In this document: positions 1,205 through 30,603 of the stretch, piece by piece
Layout of the letters: every line of letters begins with the position of its first letter
How positions within the stretch are numbered: the first letter of the stretch is position 1
Assembly: GCF_003429665.1 (NCBI RefSeq)
Contig: NZ_QUWK01000005.1
Location: 1-64,000 of the forward strand
Origin: Sphaerochaeta halotolerans
GTDB taxonomy: Bacteria > Spirochaetota > Spirochaetia > Sphaerochaetales > Sphaerochaetaceae
Direction of reading: 5' to 3'
Length of the DNA stretch: 64,000 nucleotides
Notes under the pieces: model-generated
Seen by the model: the letters and a program-made list of their open reading frames with translations, nothing else
Told to the model about the DNA's origin: nothing
Databases searched by the model: none
Translations under genes and position numbers: made by a program

Positions 1205-2885
1205 TTGAGTCTCCTGAAGAAATGAAATTGTGTAATACATTGTATAAATCTTCTTCGTACTTATTTCTGTCATCTTGAGTCCAGAAAGATATTTTCGGTG
1301 GATACTCACTAAAATACTTTAGAAAAACATTTTTTGTACATAACGGGATGAAAGTACCTGCTTTATCTCGATTAATAATTGTTTTTCTCTTAATAGGGAA
1401 AATCGCATTTTTATAACCCCTATTTGTTTCAGAGTCTAATAGGGATAGATTCGAAATATCATTTATATCTTCATCATCAATTTCTGAATTAAAATGTAAT
1501 ACAATGTCCTCAAAAACCGATTTGAATTGAGTGTCATTAGACGTATCACATTCTTTTGCCCTCTTTATTAATTGTTCTGCATCTTCTTTTTCTGAATCAA
1601 TAAAGACAATGGCATCTTTCAACCACGCATCTCTATTTTTATCTGGAAGACTATCTTTTACTGAGGTTATATGCTCAATATCCCAGCTTTCGTTTTTATA
1701 GAGATCAAATGGGAAGCGGGAGTTATCCTTTTCATTGTTTAACATTGTAAGAATATTATATAAGAGTAAAATATTCCTTACATGTTTATCGCCATATTGT
1801 AGATTATCTAACTGAACTCCAGAAACCCCATTTTTAATGAGTACGTCAAGATAATTTTTAAAACTTGATTTAGATGATTTATTAGATGTTATATATAGTT
1901 CTTTTATTGTAGTTTGTTCTGTACAGATCAAATAACCAATTTTATGGTACAGATCTCTCTCAGAAAACCATTCATTGAACCTTTGAAAATAATCCTTGAC
2001 TTCTTTCCAATTCTTTTCTATATTACTTTGGCTTTTAATTTTAAATTTATTATTAAAATATCTAAATGTAGAATAAGTATCTGTTTCATCATTTTCTTCA
2101 TTCATTATATTAAATATAAACTCTATCCGGTTAGTTGAAACTTCATTACCCGTTAAGAAATACCAAAACCGATCATCTTGAAGACTATTTTCAATGTTAT
2201 CCCATTCAGATGCAATCTCTAATTGCTTTAATCTTAATTTATCAATTTGTTCTTTGTCAAAATTAGAACTATTTAGAAATAAGGCCTTAATAAGTTCTGC
2301 ATTTGTTAAGGGAATTTTTCCAATATTTATACGAGTAAAAATTGAAATTGAATCTTCCTCTGTGCTTTCATACCAGATGATTTTTGAATTATATTTTAAT
2401 TTTGATCTGAATTCGCCTTTATCAAATCGACTATCTTGTTTATCAAACCATTCTGAAATAGCTTTAAACGCTTCATTAATATGATAAAAATCTATATTTT
2501 CATAATTTTTTTCGTCTTCAATTTTTTCTAGAAATATTTTGGTATTTGTTCTTGTTTCATAATCAAGGGAAAATAACCTATCACGTTTATTTTCTACAAA
2601 ATCCTGATTTAGATAATATAGGATTAAGTAGATGGTTGTTAATCTCTGTTGACCATCTATTACTTCATAATCAGCTCCATTCCTATTTTTAATTACAATA
2701 GGTTGTAAGCAATACCATGTTTTTTCATTCGTAGAATCTATCATTCTAGGAGTAAATTCATTTATATCATTCAGTAAATCAATAACTTCTTTTGGTGTCC
2801 ATTTATAACCTCGTTGATATGATGGTATAAAAAATGAATATGGATTGAGCTCATTTACTATCTTTAGTTCTAAAACATTGTTCAA
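1197..2885 (-). CDS. DUF262 / HNH (GmrSD-like) protein, upstream member of a pair
   Basis: This 562-residue protein has the DUF262 blocks PSYQRGYKW at residues 22-30 and DGQQRLTT at 77-84. Near the C terminus, IEH at about 403 and an ISNLSLLD ... NRGYKNA block at about 477-493 look like the DUF1524 HNH nuclease. In the GmrSD/BrxU family, DUF262 uses NTP and DUF1524 cuts DNA with modified bases. That role is inferred here, not shown. The length matches a single-chain GmrSD fusion. It is the first gene of a two-gene operon with another DUF262 protein whose start overlaps its stop. The AT-rich composition differs from the genes right of the island and suggests acquired DNA. Confidence 0.85.
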   Translation of the reverse strand: MNNVLELKIVNELNPYSFFIPSYQRGYKWTPKEVIDLLNDINEFTPRMIDSTNEKTWYCLQPIVIKNRNGADYEVIDGQQRLTTIYLILYYLNQDFVENKRDRLFSLDYETRTNTKIFLEKIEDEKNYENIDFYHINEAFKAISEWFDKQDSRFDKGEFRSKLKYNSKIIWYESTEEDSISIFTRINIGKIPLTNAELIKALFLNSSNFDKEQIDKLRLKQLEIASEWDNIENSLQDDRFWYFLTGNEVSTNRIEFIFNIMNEENDETDTYSTFRYFNNKFKIKSQSNIEKNWKEVKDYFQRFNEWFSERDLYHKIGYLICTEQTTIKELYITSNKSSKSSFKNYLDVLIKNGVSGVQLDNLQYGDKHVRNILLLYNILTMLNNEKDNSRFPFDLYKNESWDIEHITSVKDSLPDKNRDAWLKDAIVFIDSEKEDAEQLIKRAKECDTSNDTQFKSVFEDIVLHFNSEIDDEDINDISNLSLLDSETNRGYKNAIFPIKRKTIINRDKAGTFIPLCTKNVFLKYFSEYPPKISFWTQDDRNKYEEDLYNVLHNFISSGDSNG

Positions 2886-3157
2886 TGTATACTCCTTTTA
2901 AAATAAACCATTCAAATAATATCATTAAGGAAAATTATAGATGATTACTTCATATATTTCACTTACTTTCTACTTTATTATCAGTAGAAAGTACAATTGT
3001 TGCATATTTTCCACAGAAACCGGGATTTTAGGCCCCCTGAAAGCGTTGATATGGTTACTCTCTAGTTTACACTTATGTAAGTGATGGCGCGCGCTTTGGA
3101 GACACTTTTCTAGTCCTCCGATCTCACTTCTAGACGCATTTATATGGAACGTCAATA
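2886..3157. other. intergenic stretch between DUF262 operon and IS630 remnant
   Basis: I see no convincing gene here. The DUF262 operon promoter should lie in the AT-rich part next to 2885, but no clear -35/-10 pair stands out. Bases 2988-3001 form one copy of a 14-base direct repeat whose other copy is on the far side of the IS630 remnant. A short open frame on the minus strand (2970-3179) overlaps the transposase 3' end and has no ribosome binding site. Confidence 0.4.
2988..3001 (+). repeat. 14-base direct repeat, left of IS630 remnant
   Basis: AAAGTACAATTGTT occurs here and again at 4260-4273, in the same orientation, bracketing the IS630 transposase remnant at a distance of 1272 bases. 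IS630 elements normally duplicate only TA, so this is longer than a standard target duplication and its origin is unclear. Confidence 0.6.
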
Positions 3158-4211
3158 TCATTTGTGCTTTGATTGACACAAGGAACTAAGCTTTTGGTTT
3201 GGCACAGAGAAACCTGCAAAGAAATCATCGAGAGTGGCCTTGAGGTCTTCCTTGGAAGAGAAGTATTTGTTGTGCGTTTTTTCCCTTCATGTGATTCTCC
3301 AGACCCTTTCGATTGGATTCAGGTCAGGGGAATAGGGAGGAAGGAATTCAATTTCCAGGACATCCCTGATGTCCTGGTACTCATCCGATTCGCGGATGAG
3401 CCTTGCTGCTTTCCGGTGCCATGGGGCATTGTCAAGGATAAGGAGATGCCTTTCGAACGAATCATCTATCTCTTTGATATAGTCACGGATTGAGCCGATT
3501 ACGGTTTCGAAATTGAACCAGTTGACTTCTGTGACGACCAACCTGCCCGTACGAGGGCTGAGGTACCCACTGTAAGAGATATTCGACTTGCCAGGTTTGG
3601 ACTTTATCTTGGGCTGCTTCCCTATGGGTGCCCATTTCCTGGTGACGGAGGTGGTGACCTGGAAATGGACCTCATCCTGGTAGATGATCTCCAGATTGGG
3701 ATCCTTTCCCCTCTCCATCATTTTTTTTAAAGTCTTCGCGCAAAGCCTGGCCATCGCCCTTGCTAGGCAGAGTCTGCGGGCGCTGCAGGGAGAACCCGAG
3801 TGTGTGAAAGAGCCTTTGGCATTGGCGGACGCTCATCTTTACACCAAATTTAGTTTCCACAAGATGGCTTACGCTTTTCCCCTCCCAGACATCGTAGCCA
3901 TAGGCCGAAGGGTCACCCTCTAGCATGGATTTCAACGCTTCAAGCTGTGCGTGGCTCAATTTCGGGGGACGCCCTGTGGGTTTCCTTATTGCAAGGGACT
4001 CGTAGCCTTTTTCGGTAACCGCCTTGACCCAGCTTGTTATCGTGTTCTTGCTCTCTGAGCAGTACTCGCTGAGAAATGACGGAGTAAGGCCTGCAAGGAC
4101 CAGAAGGACAAGTTCCACTTTATGCTGGTATTTTGCATCGTCTGTGGAATGGACAATCATTTTCCCTTCGATAATCAAAGATGCTTTGTTGTCAATTACT
4201 CTTGTGTGCAT
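3158..4211 (-). pseudogene. IS630-family transposase, broken
   Basis: The 5' part (from 4211) encodes the helix-turn-helix DNA-binding region with a GRPPKLS linker. The 3' part encodes the DDE domain: YQDEVHF, LILDNAPWH and PPYSPDLNPIERVW. The halves are in different frames that meet at a run of eight adenines on the coding strand (complement of 3721-3728). Losing one adenine would fuse them, so this could be transcriptional slippage, known in IS families, or a plain frameshift. The frame then meets a TGA at 3287-3289 directly after ERVWRIT. Beyond it the same frame continues with a normal IS630 tail (REKTHNKYFSS...) to 3158. The internal stop makes an inactive copy likely. I could not define terminal inverted repeats. 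Confidence 0.85.
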
Positions 4212-4372: not shown

Positions 4373-4421
4373 TTTATGGGCGCGATTGGGTTTGAACCAA
4401 CGACTTCTACCGTGTGAAGGT
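4373..4421 (-). other. attachment site, distal end of island (tRNA-Val 3' copy)
   Basis: These 49 bases equal 30528-30576 exactly, covering the tRNA-Val 3' end, T arm, variable region and anticodon arm up to the start of the anticodon stem. No acceptor 5' strand or D arm follows, so this is not a tRNA gene. It is the far attachment site left by integration into the tRNA 3' end. Confidence 0.92.
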
Positions 4422-13762: not shown

Positions 13763-13916
13763 TAATATACCCCCCCCAAAAAAAAATAATTCATAATAGC
13801 TATTTTTAGTATGAATTAAAAACATAAACAACACAATGAAGTTTCAGTATCCTGCTCGTTACCTCACAGCCCTTCTCATGAGTGGAAACCTAGTATGGTT
13901 TATCCAGGAGGGCAAG

Positions 13917-14187
13917 ATGGAAGACCATGAAGATGTAAATCTGACTGAGCTGACTGCATACCAGTTGAGGTTCATCGATGAATACATGAAGTGTGGAAAC
14001 AAGCGTCAGGCGATGCTCAATGCCGGTTACAAGGGCAAGGGTAAACGCTCCACAGTGACCAGCAGCGTAGCCAAGCTCAACGTACCTTAGTTACATGAAG
14101 AGATTTAGAAAAGGCATAGGAAGCTTGTAAAAGTGAATCTCATCGAGGTAGAGACTGTGGATGAAAGGGTAACCGCACGTTTGATAC
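13917..14187 (+). pseudogene. phage terminase small subunit remnant
   Basis: From the ATG at 13917, behind a strong AGGAGGGCAAG site, the frame reads LTAYQLRFIDEYMKCGNKRQAMLNAGY, the N-terminal helix-turn-helix typical of Terminase_2 small subunits. A TAG at 14088 and another TAG 21 bases on interrupt it, but the same frame continues with LHEEI and KRHRKLVKVNLIEVETVDE, matching the family's next helices. After about 14187 the frame enters dispersed repeat C. The gene is therefore inactive. It is the only packaging gene seen in the island. Confidence 0.7.
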
Positions 14188-14258
14188 TGCCTCTACCTCC
14201 ATACATTGCTAAAATATTCGGTATAGGGGCTGTAATTAACCATGATTGACCAATTAAA
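14188..14258. repeat. dispersed repeat, copy C
   Basis: CCTCTACCTCCATACATTGC and onward to CCATGATTGACCAAT, about 70 bases, best matched to copy B. It truncates the terminase remnant and ends just before the stop of the minus-strand membrane protein gene at 14265. Confidence 0.6.
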
Positions 14259-14607: not shown

Positions 14608-14622
14608 TATCTCGTTACCTCC
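14608..14622 (+). promoter_or_regulatory. shared leader motif upstream of intein gene
   Basis: TATCTCGTTACCTCC occurs here and, in opposite orientation, at 28648-28662 upstream of the AlpA-like gene. In both cases it points toward the downstream gene at 50-70 bases from the start and follows an AT-rich -10-like stretch. Confidence 0.5.
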
Positions 14623-14673
14623 ATCCCCTTTTCATGAGGGAATTTTCTTTATGGTTAGGGAAAGGGGATTGAG

Positions 14674-15798
14674 ATGGAAAGCAATAATCTAAAAAATCAG
14701 ATAGCAGAAAAACCTGCAGTAAAGGCTCTTGAAGCGCACATTGGACCAATGCCAACCAGAAGGAACAATGCGTTGGCTTGTGACACTCCTGTACTCACAC
14801 AAGATGGATGGAAAAAGCATGGTGCTCTACAGGTTGGAGATTCTGTGTACACTCCAAAAGGATTATCCAGAGTCATAGCAACAAAACACTATTCTGATTC
14901 TCAATGTATGAAAGTAGTGTTCAGGGGCAATCAAGAAATTGTCTGTAGTTCCGGACATTTATGGAGAGCTCTGAAATGGAACTCAGCAAGGTTGAAAGGA
15001 GAAAAGCGTATCGGATGGGAAAGTAAGATATCCAAAACATCTGATTTGATGTCTAGTTATAAGAATCCATATATCCCTGTTACAGGCTTTTCAGAAATGC
15101 CAATGGTTGATCTACCTATTGAACCCTATACTCTCGGAGCATGGCTTGGTGATGGTGATAATAGTTGTGGTCGTGTATGTGGTCCTGATAATGAAGTATT
15201 TGAATCAATCAGAAAAGATGGTTACGAATTATCTGATAGCCATTGCCCTTCTCGGGCACCGTTTCAGACAAGAACAGTCTACAATTTGGTCAAGGACCTA
15301 AGAAAGCAAAATCTTCTCCATAACAAGCATATCCCACCGATTTATTTCACTTCATCTGTTAAGCAACGGTTGGCTTTACTGCAAGGATTAATGGACACTG
15401 ATGGCAATATGTCCAAGACATATGGGAATGGGGCCACATTCGTACAAAAAGGCGAACGATTGTCTCTAGATGTTCTTGCACTTGCCAATTCATTAGGATT
15501 CAGAGCTGGCATTTGTAAAACGAAACTTGCTCACTATATCTCATTCTCAATATCTTCGATAGATTTGGTTCCTTTCCGCGTACAACGAAAAATCGACAAC
15601 ATCAAGAAGCTCAAGAGTCAGAAACAGAGTAAAAACTGGTATGTACAATCAGTTGAGGAACAAGAGACCGTACCTACCAATGCCATACGTATCCAAGATC
15701 CTGATGGTATATACCTCGTCGGTCATGCACTTATCCAAACATGCAGTGATCAGTCCATTTCCTTGCCTAAAGTCGATACTGTATTAAAGACAGGATAA
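14674..15798 (+). CDS. intein with LAGLIDADG homing endonuclease in a short host frame
   Basis: Of 374 residues, 36-356 form an intein. Cys36 begins block A (CDTPVLTQDGW), GNQEIVCSSGHLW is block B, LGAWLGDGD (154-162) and LLQGLMDTDG (236-245) are the two LAGLIDADG helices with their catalytic Asp, and IQDPDGIYLVGHALIQT is the C-terminal splice region. The usual final His-Asn pair before the +1 Cys (357) is absent, so standard splicing should fail. The flanking host parts are only 35 and 18 residues and match nothing I know. Ribosome binding site GGGGA is present. It may persist as a free homing endonuclease. Confidence 0.8.
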   Translation: MESNNLKNQIAEKPAVKALEAHIGPMPTRRNNALACDTPVLTQDGWKKHGALQVGDSVYTPKGLSRVIATKHYSDSQCMKVVFRGNQEIVCSSGHLWRALKWNSARLKGEKRIGWESKISKTSDLMSSYKNPYIPVTGFSEMPMVDLPIEPYTLGAWLGDGDNSCGRVCGPDNEVFESIRKDGYELSDSHCPSRAPFQTRTVYNLVKDLRKQNLLHNKHIPPIYFTSSVKQRLALLQGLMDTDGNMSKTYGNGATFVQKGERLSLDVLALANSLGFRAGICKTKLAHYISFSISSIDLVPFRVQRKIDNIKKLKSQKQSKNWYVQSVEEQETVPTNAIRIQDPDGIYLVGHALIQTCSDQSISLPKVDTVLKTG

Positions 15799-15927: not shown

Positions 15928-17115
15928 CTAATCCTGAGGACTGATTGGTAGAACTCTTCTTAGTTTCTTATCATACCTGTACTTACTTAAAGTACCATTA
16001 AGGATAAGAGGTACAATCTTCCTGATTTCAGCCAAAGGAACGTCATACCACTCATTGGAAACAGCAAGATGACCTTTGTCATCTCTGACTCGTATACTTA
16101 CCTTTGCAGCTGAGAAAAAATGATGGACAAGTGTTTCAAGCTTGGAGATATTCAGGTTCTGACACGCCCACCTATCGATAACTTCCACCTCAGTACAGAG
16201 ATAGGTCTTTTCCTTGCTGGCATTCTTGATACGCTCTTCAACAGTACCTCTTGTGAACCCTATCTTGTGGAGATCTCGAAACTTTTTTACCTCTGGCTCT
16301 GCAGACAGGGTCTTGAGAATATATATATAGCCAACATCAAACTTTGGAACATTCTTTTCCTTTTCAAGTTTCAATCCTTCAGGAGAAACCTTGTCATCCT
16401 CTGTTACGACATATCCATGATACATAGAACGTCTGATTGACTGGGAAAGAAGATAACTTTCGGTGCCATTAGCAAAAACACAATGGGTTCTTCCATCAAA
16501 GTCTCCAGTTCTAGGGTTTCTTTGGGTCTCATAGATTTCATTGATATAGAATAAAAGACCACGCCTTACATAAAACTGCCCGACACGAAGCTCTCCTCTC
16601 TGATAAGGAACCAATTTCCTCCGACCTGACTGAATTGCTTTTTCCGCTTCATTGAAAAGAGGCTGAAACCTCTCATTAAACTCCTTACATGGTGTTGCTG
16701 AGGCAACAAATTCAGCTTCTTCTCTCTCCTTCTGAGGTTTTTTAATGATTTCTGAGTCAGAGAAGTCATTGATAGAAGTGTTCCCCAAATCAACACTGTC
16801 AAGGATATCCATACCTTCTGGTGTATTCCAAGGCAATTCTTCCTCTTCCGAAATGCTTCTATCCTGTTGGACTTTGGCTTGTCTATCCTTTATTACCTTT
16901 GCTCTCATAGCCAGGGTTTTCTCGAAAGTTTCCTTGGAGTCTAATGAAGGTTCCCGTCCATTCTTATCAATGAAGTACTGAATCTCCTTCTCCTTTGCAT
17001 CTTTAAAGTCATAGATAGTTTTAGGAGAAGGTTTCTTGATCTCAATACTCCTCAAAATAGATTCAGCTGCTTCGTCTTCAAGGATAACTTCAAGGTAATC
17101 GAATTCATCTTTCAT
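15928..17115 (-). CDS. GIY-YIG nuclease family protein of an R-M-like operon
   Basis: The 395-residue protein has a charged N-terminal region of unknown fold and a C-terminal GIY-YIG (T5orf172/MUG113-like) domain at about residues 265-350. VGYIYILKTL supplies the GIY half, LHKIGFTRGTVEERIKNA the YIG half with its Arg, and SKLETLVHHFF the conserved Glu. It overlaps the helicase gene by 11 bases and ends the operon of methyltransferase, helicase and nuclease. It is the only nuclease candidate in the set, so it probably supplies DNA cleavage. This assignment is inferred from context. Confidence 0.78.
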   Translation of the reverse strand: MKDEFDYLEVILEDEAAESILRSIEIKKPSPKTIYDFKDAKEKEIQYFIDKNGREPSLDSKETFEKTLAMRAKVIKDRQAKVQQDRSISEEEELPWNTPEGMDILDSVDLGNTSINDFSDSEIIKKPQKEREEAEFVASATPCKEFNERFQPLFNEAEKAIQSGRRKLVPYQRGELRVGQFYVRRGLLFYINEIYETQRNPRTGDFDGRTHCVFANGTESYLLSQSIRRSMYHGYVVTEDDKVSPEGLKLEKEKNVPKFDVGYIYILKTLSAEPEVKKFRDLHKIGFTRGTVEERIKNASKEKTYLCTEVEVIDRWACQNLNISKLETLVHHFFSAAKVSIRVRDDKGHLAVSNEWYDVPLAEIRKIVPLILNGTLSKYRYDKKLRRVLPISPQD

Positions 17116-19126
17116 TCTTTCTAGCCTCTTGTTTTATCTTTATGTTATAAAGAATTGCCCCAAGAACAGCTTCATACTCATCCTCTGAGAATCTATCAGG
17201 GTTCCTTTGATGGACTTTTACAAATGTCTTGATGTTCGGCCAGTAGAATAGGCATTCCTTATCTGTATAAATTTTCATTCTACCTTTCTTTTTGTCTATG
17301 GCATCTTTGATAGCTCTTAGCGTAGGCTTATCAATGTCCTTGGATAGAATTTGGTAAGCCTTCTCAAATGGGTTTATTTTGTCGATTAGATTGATCTCGA
17401 GTTCCTTAATGTCCAGAACAATCCCATTGGCAAACTTGAGGAACTTTGTACCAGTACCATGATTAGAGGTGCCATCACCAGAGTCTTCTCCGCCAAGGTC
17501 CAATCCAGAGTCGTTATCCTGGGAACCATTGTCACCCTTCTCCTTGTTATCATCACTAGGCTTTGCACTCCCAAGAACTAAGTCAGTAACCATATGCTGT
17601 CTGATTGCCTCAACATCATGGGTACTCAACTCAGGATGCTTGTCCATGATGATGCTTGGTATAAGATACTTGTTAATCAGCTGAGCATTGTTTTTATGCA
17701 GGTTTGCCTTAATGACATCTACATCAGTGCGAATTGAGTCCAACAAGGCCTCATACGTATTCTCATCTGAAATAATTAGTTTCCCTTCATCACTTTCTGG
17801 ATCAAGTATTTGTAATTTAGGAGCTTTTGCCTTGAAATCCCACTTAGGTGTCAGAACCTGTTCCATAAGCAGAGAAGCTGTGATGGCCTTGAGGAGATTG
17901 TTTACTGCGGTGATGACTTCTCCTCTGGTTGCATCTGGCTCTACGATGATGTTAGTAAAGAAAGCATCAGATTTACCCTCATAGTCTCTAGTAGCTCTTC
18001 CAATAATCTGAACAACTTCGGTAAGCGATCCACGATATCCAATGGTAAGCATCTGTTCACAAGGTGGCCAATCGAAACCTTCCCGAGCCAAATTAAGCGC
18101 TATGATAATATCTACGGCATTTTTATCTTCAGAATGCTCCTTGAGGTATTGCTGGCGTTTGACTCTATCCTCAGGGTATCTATCATCAACAAGGTCAATT
18201 ATCTTCATCATGCGACTATTTTTTGCTTTGACGTATAGAACACCTGTAATAGTATCTTCATGGTCGATTGTGCCGATGATGTCTATTATGTGGTTTACTT
18301 CCTCATACTTGTTGCCTGTGCTTTCCTGAGAATTAACATTAGGAATATGAATGATAGTTTTTCTATCAAGGTGTAAGGATTTTTCGAGTGATTCATAGTA
18401 GACCCCAGAATAGAACTCATAGGATAGAGTAATAGAGTGGAGATATTTGTAGCCTGAGAGCTGATCATAGTAGGAAAAGGTTACACTGTCAAACTTGTTC
18501 TCTACTTCCGGGTCAAGGACAGCAATACCATCTCCTCGGAAATAGGAACCTGTAAGGGCCATAATATGAGCAGATGACTTCTCCGTGATACCCTTAACTA
18601 GTTCACCGAGTCTATTTTCATCTGTATTAGCAGAAGCATGGTGGAACTCATCAATGCCAAGAAATATTCCATCAAAGTCTTTGTCTATAAGTTTGTCATA
18701 TGCAAAACGAAGAGTAGCATGAGTGCAGATGAGAATCCGGTCCTGATTCTCTTGCTTGAGGAACCTGATAAAAGCATCCACTTTTCCCTGATTAATATCG
18801 GACCCGGGCGTACATAGGTTGTATTGGTCGGAAGGATCCCAGTTCGAAAAGAAACCGTTAACCATGAGGTTTGTCTTCTTGAAAGAACCCCCAATACTCA
18901 TTTCGGGAACAGCAATGATTACCTTGTCCAATCCCTGCTTATAAAGCTTATCGAGGGCAATAAACATGAAGGCTCTTGATTTGCCTGATGCTGGTGGTGC
19001 TTTAAGTAGGAGGTACTGGGAATCTCGTCTCTCATAGACTCTTTTCTGCATCTGTCTCATTCCAAGCTCATCAACAATGACGCTTTGTTTGGTCTGTGCA
19101 TAAGTTATCTTGGCAATCTCACCCAT
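17105..19126 (-). CDS. superfamily 2 DEAD/DEAH helicase of an R-M-like operon
   Basis: The 673-residue protein has Walker A APPASGKS (43-50), Walker B DEFH (159-162), motif III LTGSY, and motif VI QIIGRATRD (373-381), so it is an SF2 translocase like the Res/HsdR motor. No nuclease motif is visible. The last 250 residues hold a polar linker with Gly/Asp/Asn-rich sequence near residues 520-555 and a helical end. It starts inside the methyltransferase stop (TAATG) after AAGGAGG, so the two are coupled. It probably moves along DNA for the system. Confidence 0.85.
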   Translation of the reverse strand: MGEIAKITYAQTKQSVIVDELGMRQMQKRVYERRDSQYLLLKAPPASGKSRAFMFIALDKLYKQGLDKVIIAVPEMSIGGSFKKTNLMVNGFFSNWDPSDQYNLCTPGSDINQGKVDAFIRFLKQENQDRILICTHATLRFAYDKLIDKDFDGIFLGIDEFHHASANTDENRLGELVKGITEKSSAHIMALTGSYFRGDGIAVLDPEVENKFDSVTFSYYDQLSGYKYLHSITLSYEFYSGVYYESLEKSLHLDRKTIIHIPNVNSQESTGNKYEEVNHIIDIIGTIDHEDTITGVLYVKAKNSRMMKIIDLVDDRYPEDRVKRQQYLKEHSEDKNAVDIIIALNLAREGFDWPPCEQMLTIGYRGSLTEVVQIIGRATRDYEGKSDAFFTNIIVEPDATRGEVITAVNNLLKAITASLLMEQVLTPKWDFKAKAPKLQILDPESDEGKLIISDENTYEALLDSIRTDVDVIKANLHKNNAQLINKYLIPSIIMDKHPELSTHDVEAIRQHMVTDLVLGSAKPSDDNKEKGDNGSQDNDSGLDLGGEDSGDGTSNHGTGTKFLKFANGIVLDIKELEINLIDKINPFEKAYQILSKDIDKPTLRAIKDAIDKKKGRMKIYTDKECLFYWPNIKTFVKVHQRNPDRFSEDEYEAVLGAILYNIKIKQEARKNER

Positions 19127-21783
19127 TATTTTGCCTCCTTTAGCAATTTCTTGTATCGCTTGAAGAGCTCTGCAAGACGTTCTTTATCACTCTCGAAGCC
19201 GCTTTTCCTGTAGAGGCTATCAACAAGAAGATCATTGGCATTATGGGCCTCTCTCAATTCCTCAGGCATATTATCTGGATCATATTGCTGCGCTAGAGTC
19301 ATATCGTAATATTTTTCTCTTGCCATAAGGATTCCCATTGCTGTTGTATCAAGTTGCGATTTTTGTGATTCTGTTAAGTTTGGAAATGGAAAGGTGTTGT
19401 AGCATAAAGTTGCAGAATACCTAAAATCAGTTTTCAACCTACCGCATACTGCTCGCAACCATACCATATGCATTTTTGAAGTAAGCATTGCAAATAGCCA
19501 AAGTGGAGCATTATAGATTACAAAAGCGCTATCATTGATTACAGTACCTTTCTCGAGATATCCAATAGGAGTATATTCTCTTTTTTCAGACGATACCCTT
19601 GGAACAATGATTGCTGGACCATCTTTATAACAAACTTGTGCACTTCTCCATGAAACTGCAGCATAATCTCTTGTTGATGAAGCTTTACTGCTTAATCTCA
19701 ATAATCTGACTTGATCAACTCTCCTCGCAATTTCGGGGTTCTTTAGTGCAGTTTCTTTAGTACTTTCAGTAATCCAAATACAGTATCTCTTTTTACCGTT
19801 GATGAATTCTTCAGAACCAATGTAAGTATGAATAAATGAGCTATCCTCAGGATATGCTTCTATAAAAGTGTTCTTTTCCTGCTCATCTAATATAAGAAAT
19901 CCACCATCTACAAATTTATTACCGTATGCCATTTTATAGGATGGAATTTTATTTGAGGGATGGACTATTATATTATCACCTTCCGTGAGATAAGGACTGA
20001 TATTTGAAACAAGCTTTTTCGATGATTCAGAGAAAAGATACTTGAGATGAGAATTATTAAAATGCTTTATTCCAATGATGGTGACTGTAACGCCAGCATT
20101 TTTTACAGCATTATTTCGCCATTTGAAAGATTCGTATCCAAAAAAGATGTCAACTGTATTATCTAAGATATTCTCCCATACAGGGACTTGAATACCTTGA
20201 CAAATCGAGTTAGTAGTAACAAATGCTGCCATAGATTGTTGATTGTTTTTTATGTAACGTGAGGCGAGCACAAACCAATTTGAGATGTAATCAATTCTCC
20301 CATTCACCAAATTACTATTAAAGACTATTAAGCTGTCCTCTTTCTGCAATGGTGTAATCGTATCACCTCCACCCCCAGCATATGGAGGATTACCACAGAT
20401 GTAAACAATATCCCCTTCATTGCAAGGGCAGACTTTCTCCCAATCAAGTCTACAAGCATTTCCACAAACAATATTTCCAGTAGGACTCAGCGGAAGAGTA
20501 GGATTACTATTCCCATACTTTTCATAACACTCACTGTTGATCTGGTGCTGAGCCAACCAGAGTGATAATCTGGCAATTTCACAAGGGAAGTCGTCAATTT
20601 CGACACCATAGAAGTTCTCAAGCTGGATACTTAAAAAAGGAAGTGGTGTATTCACATATAAATCCCAGGCTTCCATCTCCAATCTACACATTTCCTTATA
20701 AGCAATAATCAAGAAGTTTCCGCTACCACATGCTGGATCAAAAATCTTTATCTTGGAAAGCTTCAATCTGAAAGCATCAAGCTTCTTGTCATAGCCCTTT
20801 ATTGAGTTTAATTCATCATAAAGGTCATCAAGAAACAGCGGCTTAATCACCTTCATGATGTTTGAAATTGATGTATAGTGCTGACCAAGCTCGCTTCTGG
20901 TTTTTTCATCTATCGCACCTTGGAACATAGAACCGAAAATATCTGGATTAATTTTTGACCAGTCACTTGTGCAACATTCAAGAAGCCGCTGTCTTGACTT
21001 GTAGGTAAATCTCGGTACTGATAATTTATCTTTGAACAGCGCGCCATTTACATATGGGAACTTCCGGTAGCTAGGACCTACGCCCAATCGCTTGTTCTGC
21101 GTCAGATCCAATACTTCAAACAAACCTTCTAACCAAGAAGCTAGGTTTTTTCCATCTTCATCGGTCTGGATTTCAATCGAATTCTCAAACTGATTATCTT
21201 CGAAGATCTTGGTATCATCAGCAAACATACAGAAAAGAAGCCTAGTCAGAAAAGAAGAGTAAACATGAGGGGTAAAACGCTCATCGTCGAGATTATCTCT
21301 CTTGATTTCATCAAAGAGCATAGCCATTTTCTGAGCAGCCTTTACATCAGCTACATTCTCAACTACGGCTTGATGTCTCTCAATACCAATTAAAGGGAGG
21401 AAAAAATCATAATGGTCAGAAAGCTTAGAAAATGGAATATCAATACTCATCTTGTTTTTATTATCTCTGGCCATAAATTGCTTGAAATTTGTGACGATAA
21501 AGAATCGCTCTTTTGTAGATGCCTTGTTTATAGTCTCAACAAATACTTCTTCGACAGATTGCTCATATGGCACCTCTTGGAAAAGAAAATCACCTTTTTG
21601 GATATAGCAGCCATATGAGGTAGGGTTTAAGGAAGATTTATTCATCTTTGCTAGAGCTGCCGAGGAATAGTAGTACGCACCCATAAAATCTTCAAGGAAA
21701 TGACCACTATTACCCCGAGCTACAATATTCCTCAAGTCCTCATAGATTCTATCTCTATCGATATTACTTGCCCTTCTGACCAT
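19126..21783 (-). CDS. class I DNA N6-adenine methyltransferase (MmeI/YeeA-like)
   Basis: The 885-residue protein carries motif I DPACGSGNFL at about residue 350 and motif IV NPPY at about 465, the order of gamma-class N6-adenine methylases. The FFLPLIGIE and DVKAAQKMAMLFDEI blocks match the N-terminal helical part of MmeI-like methylases. The PD-(D/E)XK nuclease that starts type IIL enzymes is not evident. The C-terminal third (after about 600) likely holds target recognition. It is the first gene of an operon with a helicase and a GIY-YIG protein. Upstream overlaps a decayed hsdM fragment, so the locus replaced or captured a type I system. Confidence 0.85.
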   Translation of the reverse strand: MVRRASNIDRDRIYEDLRNIVARGNSGHFLEDFMGAYYYSSAALAKMNKSSLNPTSYGCYIQKGDFLFQEVPYEQSVEEVFVETINKASTKERFFIVTNFKQFMARDNKNKMSIDIPFSKLSDHYDFFLPLIGIERHQAVVENVADVKAAQKMAMLFDEIKRDNLDDERFTPHVYSSFLTRLLFCMFADDTKIFEDNQFENSIEIQTDEDGKNLASWLEGLFEVLDLTQNKRLGVGPSYRKFPYVNGALFKDKLSVPRFTYKSRQRLLECCTSDWSKINPDIFGSMFQGAIDEKTRSELGQHYTSISNIMKVIKPLFLDDLYDELNSIKGYDKKLDAFRLKLSKIKIFDPACGSGNFLIIAYKEMCRLEMEAWDLYVNTPLPFLSIQLENFYGVEIDDFPCEIARLSLWLAQHQINSECYEKYGNSNPTLPLSPTGNIVCGNACRLDWEKVCPCNEGDIVYICGNPPYAGGGGDTITPLQKEDSLIVFNSNLVNGRIDYISNWFVLASRYIKNNQQSMAAFVTTNSICQGIQVPVWENILDNTVDIFFGYESFKWRNNAVKNAGVTVTIIGIKHFNNSHLKYLFSESSKKLVSNISPYLTEGDNIIVHPSNKIPSYKMAYGNKFVDGGFLILDEQEKNTFIEAYPEDSSFIHTYIGSEEFINGKKRYCIWITESTKETALKNPEIARRVDQVRLLRLSSKASSTRDYAAVSWRSAQVCYKDGPAIIVPRVSSEKREYTPIGYLEKGTVINDSAFVIYNAPLWLFAMLTSKMHMVWLRAVCGRLKTDFRYSATLCYNTFPFPNLTESQKSQLDTTAMGILMAREKYYDMTLAQQYDPDNMPEELREAHNANDLLVDSLYRKSGFESDKERLAELFKRYKKLLKEAK

Positions 21784-22240: not shown

Positions 22241-24775
22241 TCATACCCATTCTTTAGCTTTAATCTTGTTCAATACTTCCTTGAACTTGGCCAATGAAGA
22301 AATGTACCACTCAAATTCTTTTATTTTGTCACTATCAGGCAACTGCCCATGTGATTGACCATAGATATAGAGATAATCCGATTTGTCATAGCTTTGAAAC
22401 AGTATCTGATCCTCGAATATTTGCTCAACCTCTGTTTTATGGCGAAGCGCAATTTCATAGAGATCATGAGTTTTCGTCTTGAAGATAAGACCACATGCTA
22501 GACTCTTCTTGTCATGTAACTTGGCCACATACGATACTGTATGTGCAACCTCTGTAAGCAATCGATAATCGGAATTGGGCTTCGCTGGGCGTAATGTAGC
22601 TGAAGGGTTCATTGAAAATTGCTTCTCTAAACAATAATTCCTAAACTCATCCCAGTAATTTCGTTGCCAAATCTTGTATGGAGTGAGTTCCTTGCTCTCA
22701 CTTACCTGTTGTTCAATCTTTGCCTTAACCTGGGTAATTTCTTTCAATAAGGATTCAATCTGGGTTTGGCTAATAAGATTGAATTCAACATTACCTGTAC
22801 CCCAATGACCAATACTCTTTACATCCTTAAACCCAGAGCTATCGTGTAGTTCCGAATATTCAAGAGATAACCAACATTTTAATCCATTTCCAGAGGGAGT
22901 GATCGAAACAAGATTAGTACCTTTATACTTCAAGGCAATATAATACTTCAAACAGGTTACAGTTGCGTAGGATAATGCTGCATGTAAAGCATCAAATAAT
23001 TGCCTAGAAAGACTTCCTTCTGCAAAATTTGGATAATCATCCAAAGTAAAGACTTTTGGGCTATTCAATTCAATTCTCAGTGCTTCAATTTCTAGAGGAG
23101 ATATCTCATGATTAGGCCATACCTGGATTGCCTTTGCAGCAAGAATTTTCCCTCGTGCTGCCATTGTTGACTCAGTCCATTCATCCTCTCTTGCCAAACT
23201 TTGATTCAAATGAACTGCGCTATCCTTGTACCCACCATCCATGTCTCTCTTCGTGAGGAAGCTGTAGTTCTGGTATTCAGAGTTATATCCAGAAAGTGTA
23301 AGGTTGCCCAACCTGTTGAGCCAGGTACGATAGATTTCATCGTATGATTCTCCAAGATACGATTTCCATTGCTCGTCCAGAGTTTGGGGCATCACATGTT
23401 CAATCGTAAGATTGTCTAGGTTTACATGCTCTTTCCAACCATATTTTTCCAGCTTGCTCAATCCATATTTACATCTGGCTATTTGGTTGCTGCTATAAAG
23501 CTCTTTTATCTGGATCTTATCAAGAAACTCATTATCTGAAGGGAAACGCCTATAAGAATCAAATGAAGCCATAATCTTATTGAAGCTTCGTACATAGTCT
23601 CTCTTGCGTAATGACTTAGTAAATGTCAGGAATGTCTTATCGAGACTATTCGTAGGAAGATCACAGGCATAGCGTCTATACACATATGATTCTATTAATC
23701 GGACCAATTTGACAAACTCGTCGGTCGATAACAGACCTTCACTATAGTCTTGATACATCTCCAATAGTAAAGGAAATGCCGTTTCCACTCGTAATGTCAT
23801 CAGATCATCGAAAGCATCCCTAAGCTGCTTCTCTGGCTCCATGCTATAGGCCATATTGCAGTAGAATTTTGCAAACCGATAAATATCAGAGACTATTGTT
23901 CGATGAATGTTTTCACTACCATCATCTGTTGCATAAACATGGTTTTTGAATCTTGCATATATATTCCCAATCTTTAATGGTTGTTTTGTTTTATAGAGGA
24001 GGTAGTGGCGCATAAAGACATCAAAATCTTTCTGCCTGGTGTCTGCGAACAGTTGCTCAAGTTTTCTCCAATAACCAGTATAGAGTTCGTCTTGCAACTC
24101 CTTTGGTAGCCCCATCAAAAGGAAATTCCTGATAAGATCAGCCTGTCCAAGAGGTTTCCCGGTAGAATTGAGACTCTCAAAAATCAACTGAGGATTATCT
24201 TGGGTTCCCAAGCTGATATCAACCAATCGGAGTTTAACCAACCCATGAAAGAAATCTTTTGGATTGCTCAGCGTTGTCACCAAACGACGTATGTACTGAT
24301 ACATTGCTAGAACTGAAGAACTCACAACTGAGGGAAAGGGTTTATTTTCAACGATTGCCTCAAATGTCTCTTTATCAGACTGGGTCAGTACAAGTTTTGA
24401 CCTATACTCAGGTTTCCCATATCGATTAGATAAATACACATCACGAATCATCGCTGATGAGAACTCTCCATAACCTATGTCTCCCATCTGATCAGAAATT
24501 GCCTTAAGCATGAGCAAGATGGTTGTTATCCGCTGCTGACCATCTATCACAACTGCCTTATGTATCGACCCTAATCCATTGGACTCATCCAACACATACA
24601 CCACTGAACCGATGAAATGCGAAGGAATATGGGAGCTCCTCCCTGCTCGGAGGATATCATCCCATAAACACTTACACTCTTTTTCAGTCCAGCTATAGGT
24701 TCTCTGATATATCGGTATCAAGAACTGAGTTTGGCTTGAGATAATCTCAATCAGTTGCTTTGCTTGTGCATGCAT
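22241..24775 (-). CDS. DUF262-DUF1524-DUF5655-DUF4268 protein (GmrSD family)
   Basis: About 844 residues from the ATG at 24775, with GGAG upstream. In order: DUF262 with IPIYQRTYSW and IDGQQRITT (about residue 80), an HNH DUF1524 with IEHVMPQ (about 457) and NRLGNLTLSGYNSEYQN, a DUF5655-like domain (about 590-690, LKYYIALKYKGTNLVSI ... GHWGTGNVEF), and a DUF4268-like C-terminal domain. This four-part layout is a known long form of modification-dependent or anti-phage GmrSD nucleases. It stands alone between the replication genes and the methyltransferase operon. It shares only the family with the DUF262 pair at the window's left end. Confidence 0.88.
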   Translation of the reverse strand: MHAQAKQLIEIISSQTQFLIPIYQRTYSWTEKECKCLWDDILRAGRSSHIPSHFIGSVVYVLDESNGLGSIHKAVVIDGQQRITTILLMLKAISDQMGDIGYGEFSSAMIRDVYLSNRYGKPEYRSKLVLTQSDKETFEAIVENKPFPSVVSSSVLAMYQYIRRLVTTLSNPKDFFHGLVKLRLVDISLGTQDNPQLIFESLNSTGKPLGQADLIRNFLLMGLPKELQDELYTGYWRKLEQLFADTRQKDFDVFMRHYLLYKTKQPLKIGNIYARFKNHVYATDDGSENIHRTIVSDIYRFAKFYCNMAYSMEPEKQLRDAFDDLMTLRVETAFPLLLEMYQDYSEGLLSTDEFVKLVRLIESYVYRRYACDLPTNSLDKTFLTFTKSLRKRDYVRSFNKIMASFDSYRRFPSDNEFLDKIQIKELYSSNQIARCKYGLSKLEKYGWKEHVNLDNLTIEHVMPQTLDEQWKSYLGESYDEIYRTWLNRLGNLTLSGYNSEYQNYSFLTKRDMDGGYKDSAVHLNQSLAREDEWTESTMAARGKILAAKAIQVWPNHEISPLEIEALRIELNSPKVFTLDDYPNFAEGSLSRQLFDALHAALSYATVTCLKYYIALKYKGTNLVSITPSGNGLKCWLSLEYSELHDSSGFKDVKSIGHWGTGNVEFNLISQTQIESLLKEITQVKAKIEQQVSESKELTPYKIWQRNYWDEFRNYCLEKQFSMNPSATLRPAKPNSDYRLLTEVAHTVSYVAKLHDKKSLACGLIFKTKTHDLYEIALRHKTEVEQIFEDQILFQSYDKSDYLYIYGQSHGQLPDSDKIKEFEWYISSLAKFKEVLNKIKAKEWV

Positions 24776-24892
24776 AACACACTCCATTGGAATAATTGTT
24801 AATTATCTCACTTTACGACTATTTGATACAAAACTCAAATCAAATAAAGCCAATCGCAGAAGAATATAAACTAATGGCTGTTTTTTAGGTGT

Positions 24893-29105: not shown

Positions 29106-30413
29106 TCACGGAGATGGCAGAATATTGCAGCTTACCCTACCAACCTCAAGTAGCCTCTCTTCTGTTTCGTGTGTATAGTTGTTTGTCATTGCAGTACTCT
29201 GATGACCTACCACACTTTGCAAAAGATTGTCTCCTACTTTTCCACGCATGAACGTGACATAGTAGTGGCGCAAACTGTGAAAAACGATGTTTCTTTCCCT
29301 TCTTAAGAATTCCCCTTTGGTGATAGACTTCTTCTCACCAAGCTTCCTTGTGCTAACTTCGACCATCTCTCCTACACAATTATTCTGTTCTTCCAGTAGG
29401 TCTGCAACGGTCTTATTGAAATCCAATGTAATAAAAGACGATGAAATTGGGTTCTTTTGTGTAGTATCGGACCAGAACACAAGCTCTGTACCATATGGGT
29501 TGCGTGAAGCAAGTTGTAGCAAGTCCTCACAGAGCCAGCGTGGGCAGGGAACAAATCGTTCTCTTTTTCCTTTTGTAGACTTCATTCCTGCGTATACAGC
29601 AATTGACTGGCTTACTGTAATGATACCCTGCTCACTGTTAATGAGAGTGATTGCTCCAGCCTTCAATGCTCGAATCTCCCCTTGCCTCATGCCAGTAAAT
29701 GCAGACAGAACTGTGGCAAGATATACACGTGGATCAAAAGCATTCTCTCTCGATTTCCTTCTCATTATCAGAATTATTTGATGCAGTTCTGAACTCGTAA
29801 GGATTCCTCTTCTCTTTGGCTTGGTTGATATAGATTCAAGATTCTCAACGGGATTGTGTGATATCATCCTCAAACGTTTCGCTTCATTCAGAGGTACGGA
29901 CATCGATTGCACTACTTTCAGTATTGTTGCATTTGCCAATAGCCCATCATCGAACAGGGTATTCACAATGAGCTCAACGTGATTTGTAGTGACACAACTC
30001 AGCTTCAAGTTTGAAGGAAGTAATGGGAGAGCATGCTTCTTGAAATAGTTACGCATATTCCTCGTATAGTCATGCCCCAGGGAATTCGGATTTTTGAGAT
30101 TCCTTCTCCTGATGTAATCACTATGTTCGAAGTCCCAGAACTCCATCACATACTCAATGAAATTTGGGTCCTTTTTCCCAAAGGTGATAATCCCATCGTC
30201 AAGAGCTTTTTGAGCAATATACTCAACTTCCCTTCTTCTTGTAATGGAGCTACGATCATAAATACCAAGTTTTTTCCTTAATGTATTTATACTGATTGCT
30301 GTTTTTTGTTTTCCTGTAATCGGATCAAGATAATATACGTACCAATAACTACCCTTTGTAACCACACGTTTGTGGAGGTAGAATGCATAAGATTTTTTCA
30401 AACGATTCCTCAA
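29106..30413 (-). CDS. int: tyrosine recombinase (integrase)
   Basis: The 435-residue protein shows the phage integrase layout: an N-terminal arm/SAM-like region, then the catalytic domain with Arg in GMRQGEIRALK (about residue 246), HSLRHYYVTFMRG (His-x-x-Arg), GHQSTAMTNNYTHE with the second His and the nucleophilic Tyr. It reads away from the tRNA-Val gene, starting 118 bases from it. It should catalyse integration and excision at the 49-base core. Tandem arm-like motifs lie just before its start (30439-30461), so integrase binding may also control its own promoter. Confidence 0.93.
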   Translation of the reverse strand: MRNRLKKSYAFYLHKRVVTKGSYWYVYYLDPITGKQKTAISINTLRKKLGIYDRSSITRRREVEYIAQKALDDGIITFGKKDPNFIEYVMEFWDFEHSDYIRRRNLKNPNSLGHDYTRNMRNYFKKHALPLLPSNLKLSCVTTNHVELIVNTLFDDGLLANATILKVVQSMSVPLNEAKRLRMISHNPVENLESISTKPKRRGILTSSELHQIILIMRRKSRENAFDPRVYLATVLSAFTGMRQGEIRALKAGAITLINSEQGIITVSQSIAVYAGMKSTKGKRERFVPCPRWLCEDLLQLASRNPYGTELVFWSDTTQKNPISSSFITLDFNKTVADLLEEQNNCVGEMVEVSTRKLGEKKSITKGEFLRRERNIVFHSLRHYYVTFMRGKVGDNLLQSVVGHQSTAMTNNYTHETEERLLEVGRVSCNILPSP

Positions 30414-30527: not shown

Positions 30528-30576
30528 TTTATGGGCGCGATTGGGTTTGAACCAACGACTTCTACCGTGTGAAGGT
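30528..30576 (-). other. attachment site, tRNA-proximal end of island
   Basis: The 49-base core, identical to 4373-4421. It covers the tRNA-Val 3' part and rebuilds a complete tRNA, so integration is silent for the host. Confidence 0.92.
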
Positions 30577-30603
30577 AGCACTCTCCCACTGAGTTACGCG
30601 CCC
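30532..30603 (-). tRNA. tRNA-Val (CAC anticodon)
   Basis: 72 bases fold as a full cloverleaf: acceptor GGGCGCG/CGCGCCC, D stem ACTC/GAGT, anticodon stem CTACC/GGTAG with loop TTCACAC (anticodon CAC), T stem GTTGG/CCAAT with TTCAAAC, and discriminator A. The CCA end is not encoded. It serves as integration site for the island. Confidence 0.95.

Follow-up and report, generated by a model that had tools for sequence, protein, structure and literature searches.

A probable free-standing LAGLIDADG endonuclease derived from a class 3 terminase intein in a phage-derived element of Sphaerochaeta halotolerans

The window, a 64,000-nucleotide stretch of Sphaerochaeta halotolerans DNA (contig NZ_QUWK01000005.1), carries a single intact open frame of 374 amino acids (14674-15798, + strand) that is probably a gene for a free-standing LAGLIDADG endonuclease, with its origin in a class 3 intein of a phage terminase large subunit (TerL). 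On its sequence it is not classed with the inteins themselves, since a host protein and two of the defining residues were looked for and found missing. A chance open frame is excluded at the sequence level, since it aligns over 330 codons with a 78% identical relative and has further homologues in the hundreds. Pfam gives only weak LAGLIDADG_3/Hom_end matches to the protein, and in PHROGs it groups with intein-bearing terminase large subunits. Two LAGLIDADG motifs, WLGDG and LMDTDG, are present, and the family alignment finds both of their acidic residues, D160 and D243, so that the first-pass annotation was right on this point. The gene has its own start outside any host gene, an ATG at 14674 with GGGGA before it, and a leader motif that some phage genes also have. 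From the sequence we infer that its product cuts DNA, and also the use made of the cutting. The gene and its parts are as follows:

14674-15798, +: 374-aa gene for a putative free-standing LAGLIDADG endonuclease, splicing-dead and of class 3 intein origin (open reading frame; PHROG terminase-intein matches; 78% identical G018 copy; AlphaFold pLDDT 89 and full-length PI-SceI match)
14674-14769, +: N-terminal tail, 32 residues; no recognisable host protein, no homologue, no relation to the N-terminal tail in G018
14770-14991, +: Hint (splicing) domain, N-terminal part (family alignment; structure)
14770-14772, +: A1, intein position 1 (family alignment)
14956-14958, +: motif-B His, retained (family alignment)
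14962-14964, +: motif-B Trp, retained (family alignment)
15109-15591, +: LAGLIDADG endonuclease domain, the least diverged part (family alignment; Foldseek to PI-SceI and I-DmoI)
15151-15153, +: acidic residue D160, retained (family alignment)
15400-15402, +: acidic residue D243, retained (family alignment)
15682-15684, +: motif F position 4, Ala here and Thr in G018 instead of the class 3 catalytic Cys (which 147/148 relatives have)
15739-15747, +: C-terminal end T-C-S where T-His-Asn is expected; G018 also TCS (penultimate His in 144/148 and last Asn in 147/148 relatives)
15748-15795, +: C-terminal tail, 16 residues, unrelated to that of G018 (pair comparison; no homologue)

A whole-genome search of 139 genomes of the bacterial family found two copies in all, that of the window and one in G018, the only other in the genus, which is 78% identical, lies in a 389-aa frame and ends in GYALIPTCSN; a third genome among the 139 (G139) gave only a weak partial match, and no close copy was found elsewhere among 393 sampled genomes of the phylum. 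A scan of the genome contigs with the single sequence found no relatives, whereas an alignment query did recover them. DNA similarity between the two copies runs from 14785 (the codon of intein position 6) to 15746 (the CS codons) and then stops, and the tails on both sides are unrelated. The 53-residue host (35 + 18) proposed in the first-pass annotation does not survive this comparison: with corrected junctions the tails are 32 + 16 residues, they are entirely different in the G018 copy, and no uninterrupted homologue of the joined tails was found above noise in phages or in 138 genomes of the family. By these sequence comparisons there is no host protein for the window gene. Searches with the flanking DNA for an empty insertion site gave matches to the terS leader alone for the left flank and none for the right, and the G018 flanks as query gave only weak short matches.

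In class 3 inteins a motif-F Cys stands in for the N-terminal nucleophile (PMC3196547, PMC7664689). Alignment with 148 full-length viral and bacterial relatives (111 non-redundant rows give the same picture) demonstrates, at the level of sequence, descent of the window gene from such an intein. Trp B:12 is present in all 148 relatives and His B:10 in 147, and the window gene retains both (GHLW, residues 94-97); Thr G:5, found in 147 of the 148, is kept in both copies (LIQT in the window, LIPT in G018). Position 1, which is Ala in 107 and Gly in 22 relatives (129 together), is Ala in the window and Gly in G018, and neither copy has the Cys, Ser or Thr there that the class 3 definition excludes. 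The first-pass annotation had placed the N-terminal junction three residues late, at A|C (Cys36); the intein starts at Ala33, in ALACDT, with T as its sixth residue. A class 1 reading with Cys36 as first residue is ruled out, since the family alignment puts position 1 at Ala33.

The residues that carry out splicing are another matter. Cys F:4, the initiating nucleophile in 147/148 relatives, is Ala in the window and Thr in G018, which contradicts the earlier statement that all intein blocks are present. The last Asn (147/148) and the penultimate His (144/148) are Ser and Cys in both copies; the window protein ends in GIYLVGHALIQTCSDQ, without His-Asn, and the first-pass annotation had correctly seen that this pair is missing from a junction reading LIQT-C-S. 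With the motif-F Cys and the terminal Asn both lost, the initiating and the resolving steps would both be gone, and, as read from their sequences, splicing chemistry is absent at both steps in the window and G018 copies. The earlier view that a clean six-base loss had removed the pair is not the best one. The window gene aligns to the family without a gap at the C-terminal junction, with CS in place of HN, and two class 3 inteins (L044 and L105) end in PTCN, with a natural penultimate Cys instead of His; given these, a 6-bp deletion is not needed, and a substitution, or a one-codon loss with a substitution, would fit the TCS end as well or better. The two copies have the same TCS end although three quarters of their synonymous sites differ, so the loss is ancestral to both and not a fresh six-base deletion at the window locus.

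A rival reading is an active intein whose splicing or cleavage chemistry is new and acts through the conserved Cys of the TCS end. In its favour, Cys357 is common to both copies and the motif-B His and Trp and the motif-G Thr are still there, but against such a chemistry stand the loss of both the motif-F Cys and the terminal Asn in each copy, the lack of a host protein to splice, the wholly different tails, and a Hint part that is changing more quickly than the endonuclease, which is not the case in most intact pairs (below); we regard it as most improbable. The suggestion of another splice chemistry in the first-pass annotation meets the same objection, as the ancestor was of class 3 and its nucleophile has gone along with the terminal Asn, and the frequencies of His and Asn given above show that the TCS ending is not normal in an active group of this family.

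Between the window and G018 copies pS is 0.72 and pN 0.13, giving a dN/dS of about 0.06 (0.057, bootstrap upper bound 0.10) that is approximate because synonymous sites are near saturation. Neutral drift of the two frames is excluded. As a control, Hint and endonuclease divergence were compared in 25 disjoint pairs of other family members at similar distance; their Hint/endonuclease ratio has a median of 0.71 (range 0.29-2.01) and is below 1 in 22 of the 25, whereas that of the window/G018 pair is 2.22, above every control pair, and the difference between the two parts within this pair is significant (Fisher p = 0.005). Selection has moved from the splicing part to the endonuclease. To judge from the two sequences the window gene is not decaying and has been under purifying selection since the copies split, and the earlier option of a stalled intein, which is at odds with a loss that predates the split, gives way to that annotation's other option, a free homing enzyme, which these comparisons support.

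Decay has a known precedent. Arsp-FB24 Arth_1007 of Arthrobacter FB24 was shown not to splice and was called a pseudogene (Tori and Perler 2011; PMC3196547), and like the window gene it is of class 3 origin, has short tails (52 + 14) and lacks the motif-F Cys (PMC3196547). A similar reading of the window gene, as a decaying intein pseudogene in a cryptic prophage with splicing dead and the rest unselected, could draw on this likeness and on the decayed terS next to it in a phage-derived element, but is improbable in view of a synonymous difference near saturation against a 13% non-synonymous one, two intact frames, retained catalytic acids and an endonuclease part that is the most conserved. 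Arth_1007 also differs in having kept its terminal Asn and lost its motif-B His, and it is known from one copy, whereas the window endonuclease is conserved between two diverged copies; this conservation contradicts an Arth_1007-type pseudogene reading for the window gene.

An AlphaFold2 model built from 48 sequences has a pLDDT of 89.3 and a pTM of 0.88, with both tails poorly defined. In Foldseek the whole chain matches PI-SceI (1ef0; E 1e-18, TM 0.65), the Hint part matches class 3 DnaB inteins, among them the mycobacterial DnaB intein (PDB 6bs8, 6riy), and the endonuclease part matches I-DmoI; unlike the window protein, PI-SceI and the mycobacterial intein are splicing-competent inside host proteins. 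The predicted fold is unbroken by the loss of splicing, in a model whose alignment is dominated by intact relatives and which is no proof alone. LAGLIDADG folds have been reused for regulation, as in the known regulator WhiA, and a WhiA-containing complex stands at rank 38 in the Foldseek list; a protein that binds DNA without cutting, for example as a regulator, is nevertheless unlikely, as both catalytic acids are present in both copies and in 145-146 of the 148 relatives.

In a maximum-likelihood tree of 113 rows the window/G018 pair is nested in a 14-row clade (SH-aLRT 98), and the other 12 members are all TerL inteins at a P-loop site, HYK|S or HGK|S, which was confirmed for every one of them; insertion in these 12 is after the P-loop Lys, in [DEFG]H[YFG]K|S[ST]. 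The fork that unites the pair with its nearest TerL inteins has moderate support (86). Compared with the class 3 (WCT) inteins at TerL HYK|S (L021, L022, L024, L025, L027, L030, L047, L063, L079 and L086), the window gene is alike in whole-length homology of up to 42%, domain order, motif-B His and Trp, motif-G Thr and both LAGLIDADG motifs, but those inteins are inserted in terL, possess the motif-F Cys and finish with His-Asn|Ser, features that are all absent from the window gene, as is a host. Two relatives, L180 and L129 (below), were looked at as candidates for further free-standing genes. L180, placed far away in the tree, is the sole other relative that is splicing-dead by motif, a 384-aa frame of the same family in Virgisporangium (2722-3873) with Gln at B:10, Ser at F:4 and the end VLVG, in which the LAGLIDADG acids are kept; it is possibly an independent second liberation.

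Prophages of the genus have a homologous terL whose site is uninterrupted, IDIWARDHYK-STLITF (RDHYKS), the P-loop segment being that of the IDIWARDHYKSTLITF codons. Because the pair nests among TerL inteins and this genus site is empty, recognition of terL is the natural prediction, and on this sequence comparison we tentatively put terL forward as the target of the window enzyme. Against this target, the terL of G018 is intact and its site empty, at 548 kb from the endonuclease copy, which is difficult to reconcile with an expressed enzyme of such specificity; the enzyme there would be silent, regulated or retargeted, if terL is its site. Pfam Terminase_6N has no match in G000 or G018, but the genus terL itself is barely detected by Pfam, so that this absence carries no information and the protein search is the one to go by.

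The window gene lies downstream of a decayed terS in a 26 kb tRNA-integrated element (4373-30576) with its integrase adjacent to the tRNA. The relevant features are:

4373-4421: left att copy, 49-bp exact repeat of the 3' part of a tRNA (repeat)
13836-14246, +: terminase small subunit (terS) pseudogene, decayed, two in-frame stops (Pfam Terminase_2; tblastn with an intact genus terS over 13878-14174)
14611-14623, +: 5'-leader 13-mer CTCGTTACCTCCA, 63 nt upstream of the ATG (found nine times in 26 genus genomes; reversed control, none)
14664-14668, +: Shine-Dalgarno-like GGGGA, predicted to pair with leader ATCCCCTT (sequence; leader folds)
29106-30413, -: tyrosine integrase of the carrier element (Pfam and PHROG integrase)
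30528-30576: right att copy, inside the tRNA at 30532-30603 (-) (repeat)

All nine occurrences of the 13-mer lie 61-63 nt upstream of a start codon: each endonuclease gene has one, terS genes account for two, and copies of a single gene, MSTVVDD(R/K)LGKTIYADNIKL, for the other five; by this spacing the G018 gene starts at an ATG at residue 13 of its listed frame, behind GGAGG. The 13-mer (leader at 14611-14673; L187-L195) contains ACCTCC, which is complementary to the ribosome-binding site, so the motif may mark a regulated phage leader. Folding of the leader RNAs, with L189, L191 and L194 left out of account, predicts Shine-Dalgarno pairing in several, with weak z-scores of -1.4 to -1.7.

The genes of the element that were tested comprise, besides the terS pseudogene, a phage-type replication and recombination set (DnaB helicase, Erf, RadC) and restriction genes (a type IIG enzyme, a ResIII-type helicase, a GIY-YIG protein and GmrSD), with no capsid, portal or tail gene among them; the element may be a cryptic prophage or something like a satellite. 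We note that the restriction genes form a defence cluster at 15928-21783, in which genes for a T5orf172 GIY-YIG protein, a ResIII-type helicase and an MmeI-like type IIG enzyme overlap, followed at 22241-24787 by a GmrSD/DUF262 type IV-like gene. Parts of the backbone recur in G002, in a full prophage that has terS-terL in place of the terS pseudogene and endonuclease gene, and the copy in G018 likewise comes after these blocks.

We picture the history as follows. The ancestor would be a class 3 intein at HYK|S in the P-loop of phage terminase large subunits; its descendant kept the whole fold (Hint and endonuclease), but the splicing chemistry was already gone when the two known copies split. 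The protein would now be translated from its own start, behind a leader that it shares with phage genes, and would bind a single long DNA site and cut it, the likeliest being the uninterrupted P-loop site in the terL of related phages; this would enable its tRNA-integrated, phage-derived carrier to home into or damage competing phages. Since phage homing endonucleases act in phage competition (PMC11620839), use as a weapon is plausible. A more general idea, that the phage-derived chromosomal elements of this genus have dropped their packaging module and use the liberated TerL-intein endonuclease, under a phage leader, to cut the terL P-loop codons of infecting related phages, is doubtful; if true, an intein would have become a weapon against phages, or of one phage against another, directed at codons that a phage cannot easily change.

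For escape of intein endonucleases from splicing, the record consists mainly of yeast HO and WHO, which are independently expressed, intein-derived, non-splicing LAGLIDADG endonucleases without exteins and with motif G lost; cutting and homing have been demonstrated for WHO (Coughlan et al. 2020; PMC7282813). The window gene is like them in having no exteins and in its loss in motif G, where it is the catalytic His-Asn that has gone and the Thr remains. HO and WHO differ in being eukaryotic, in their relation to the VMA1 intein (VDE) and in a C-terminal zinc finger with CxxC motifs, none of which occurs in the 16-residue C-terminal tail of the window protein. In the open-licence literature Arth_1007, filed as a decayed pseudogene, was the one comparable bacterial case found, and others may exist. 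In the two diverged copies described here the endonuclease has been kept after the loss of splicing, and the usual order of conservation, splicing part above endonuclease, is reversed. With a candidate enzyme, an ancestral site (the terL P-loop) and an empty target defined, an HO-like transition in prokaryotes and a role in phage competition are directly testable, and the case suggests that short-frame "dead" inteins such as Arth_1007 are worth re-examining. We note that a 415-aa frame of Arthrobacter ISL-28 (L129, 3941-5185) is a class 3 intein with short tails and every splicing residue kept, perhaps an intermediate or a relative of Arth_1007.
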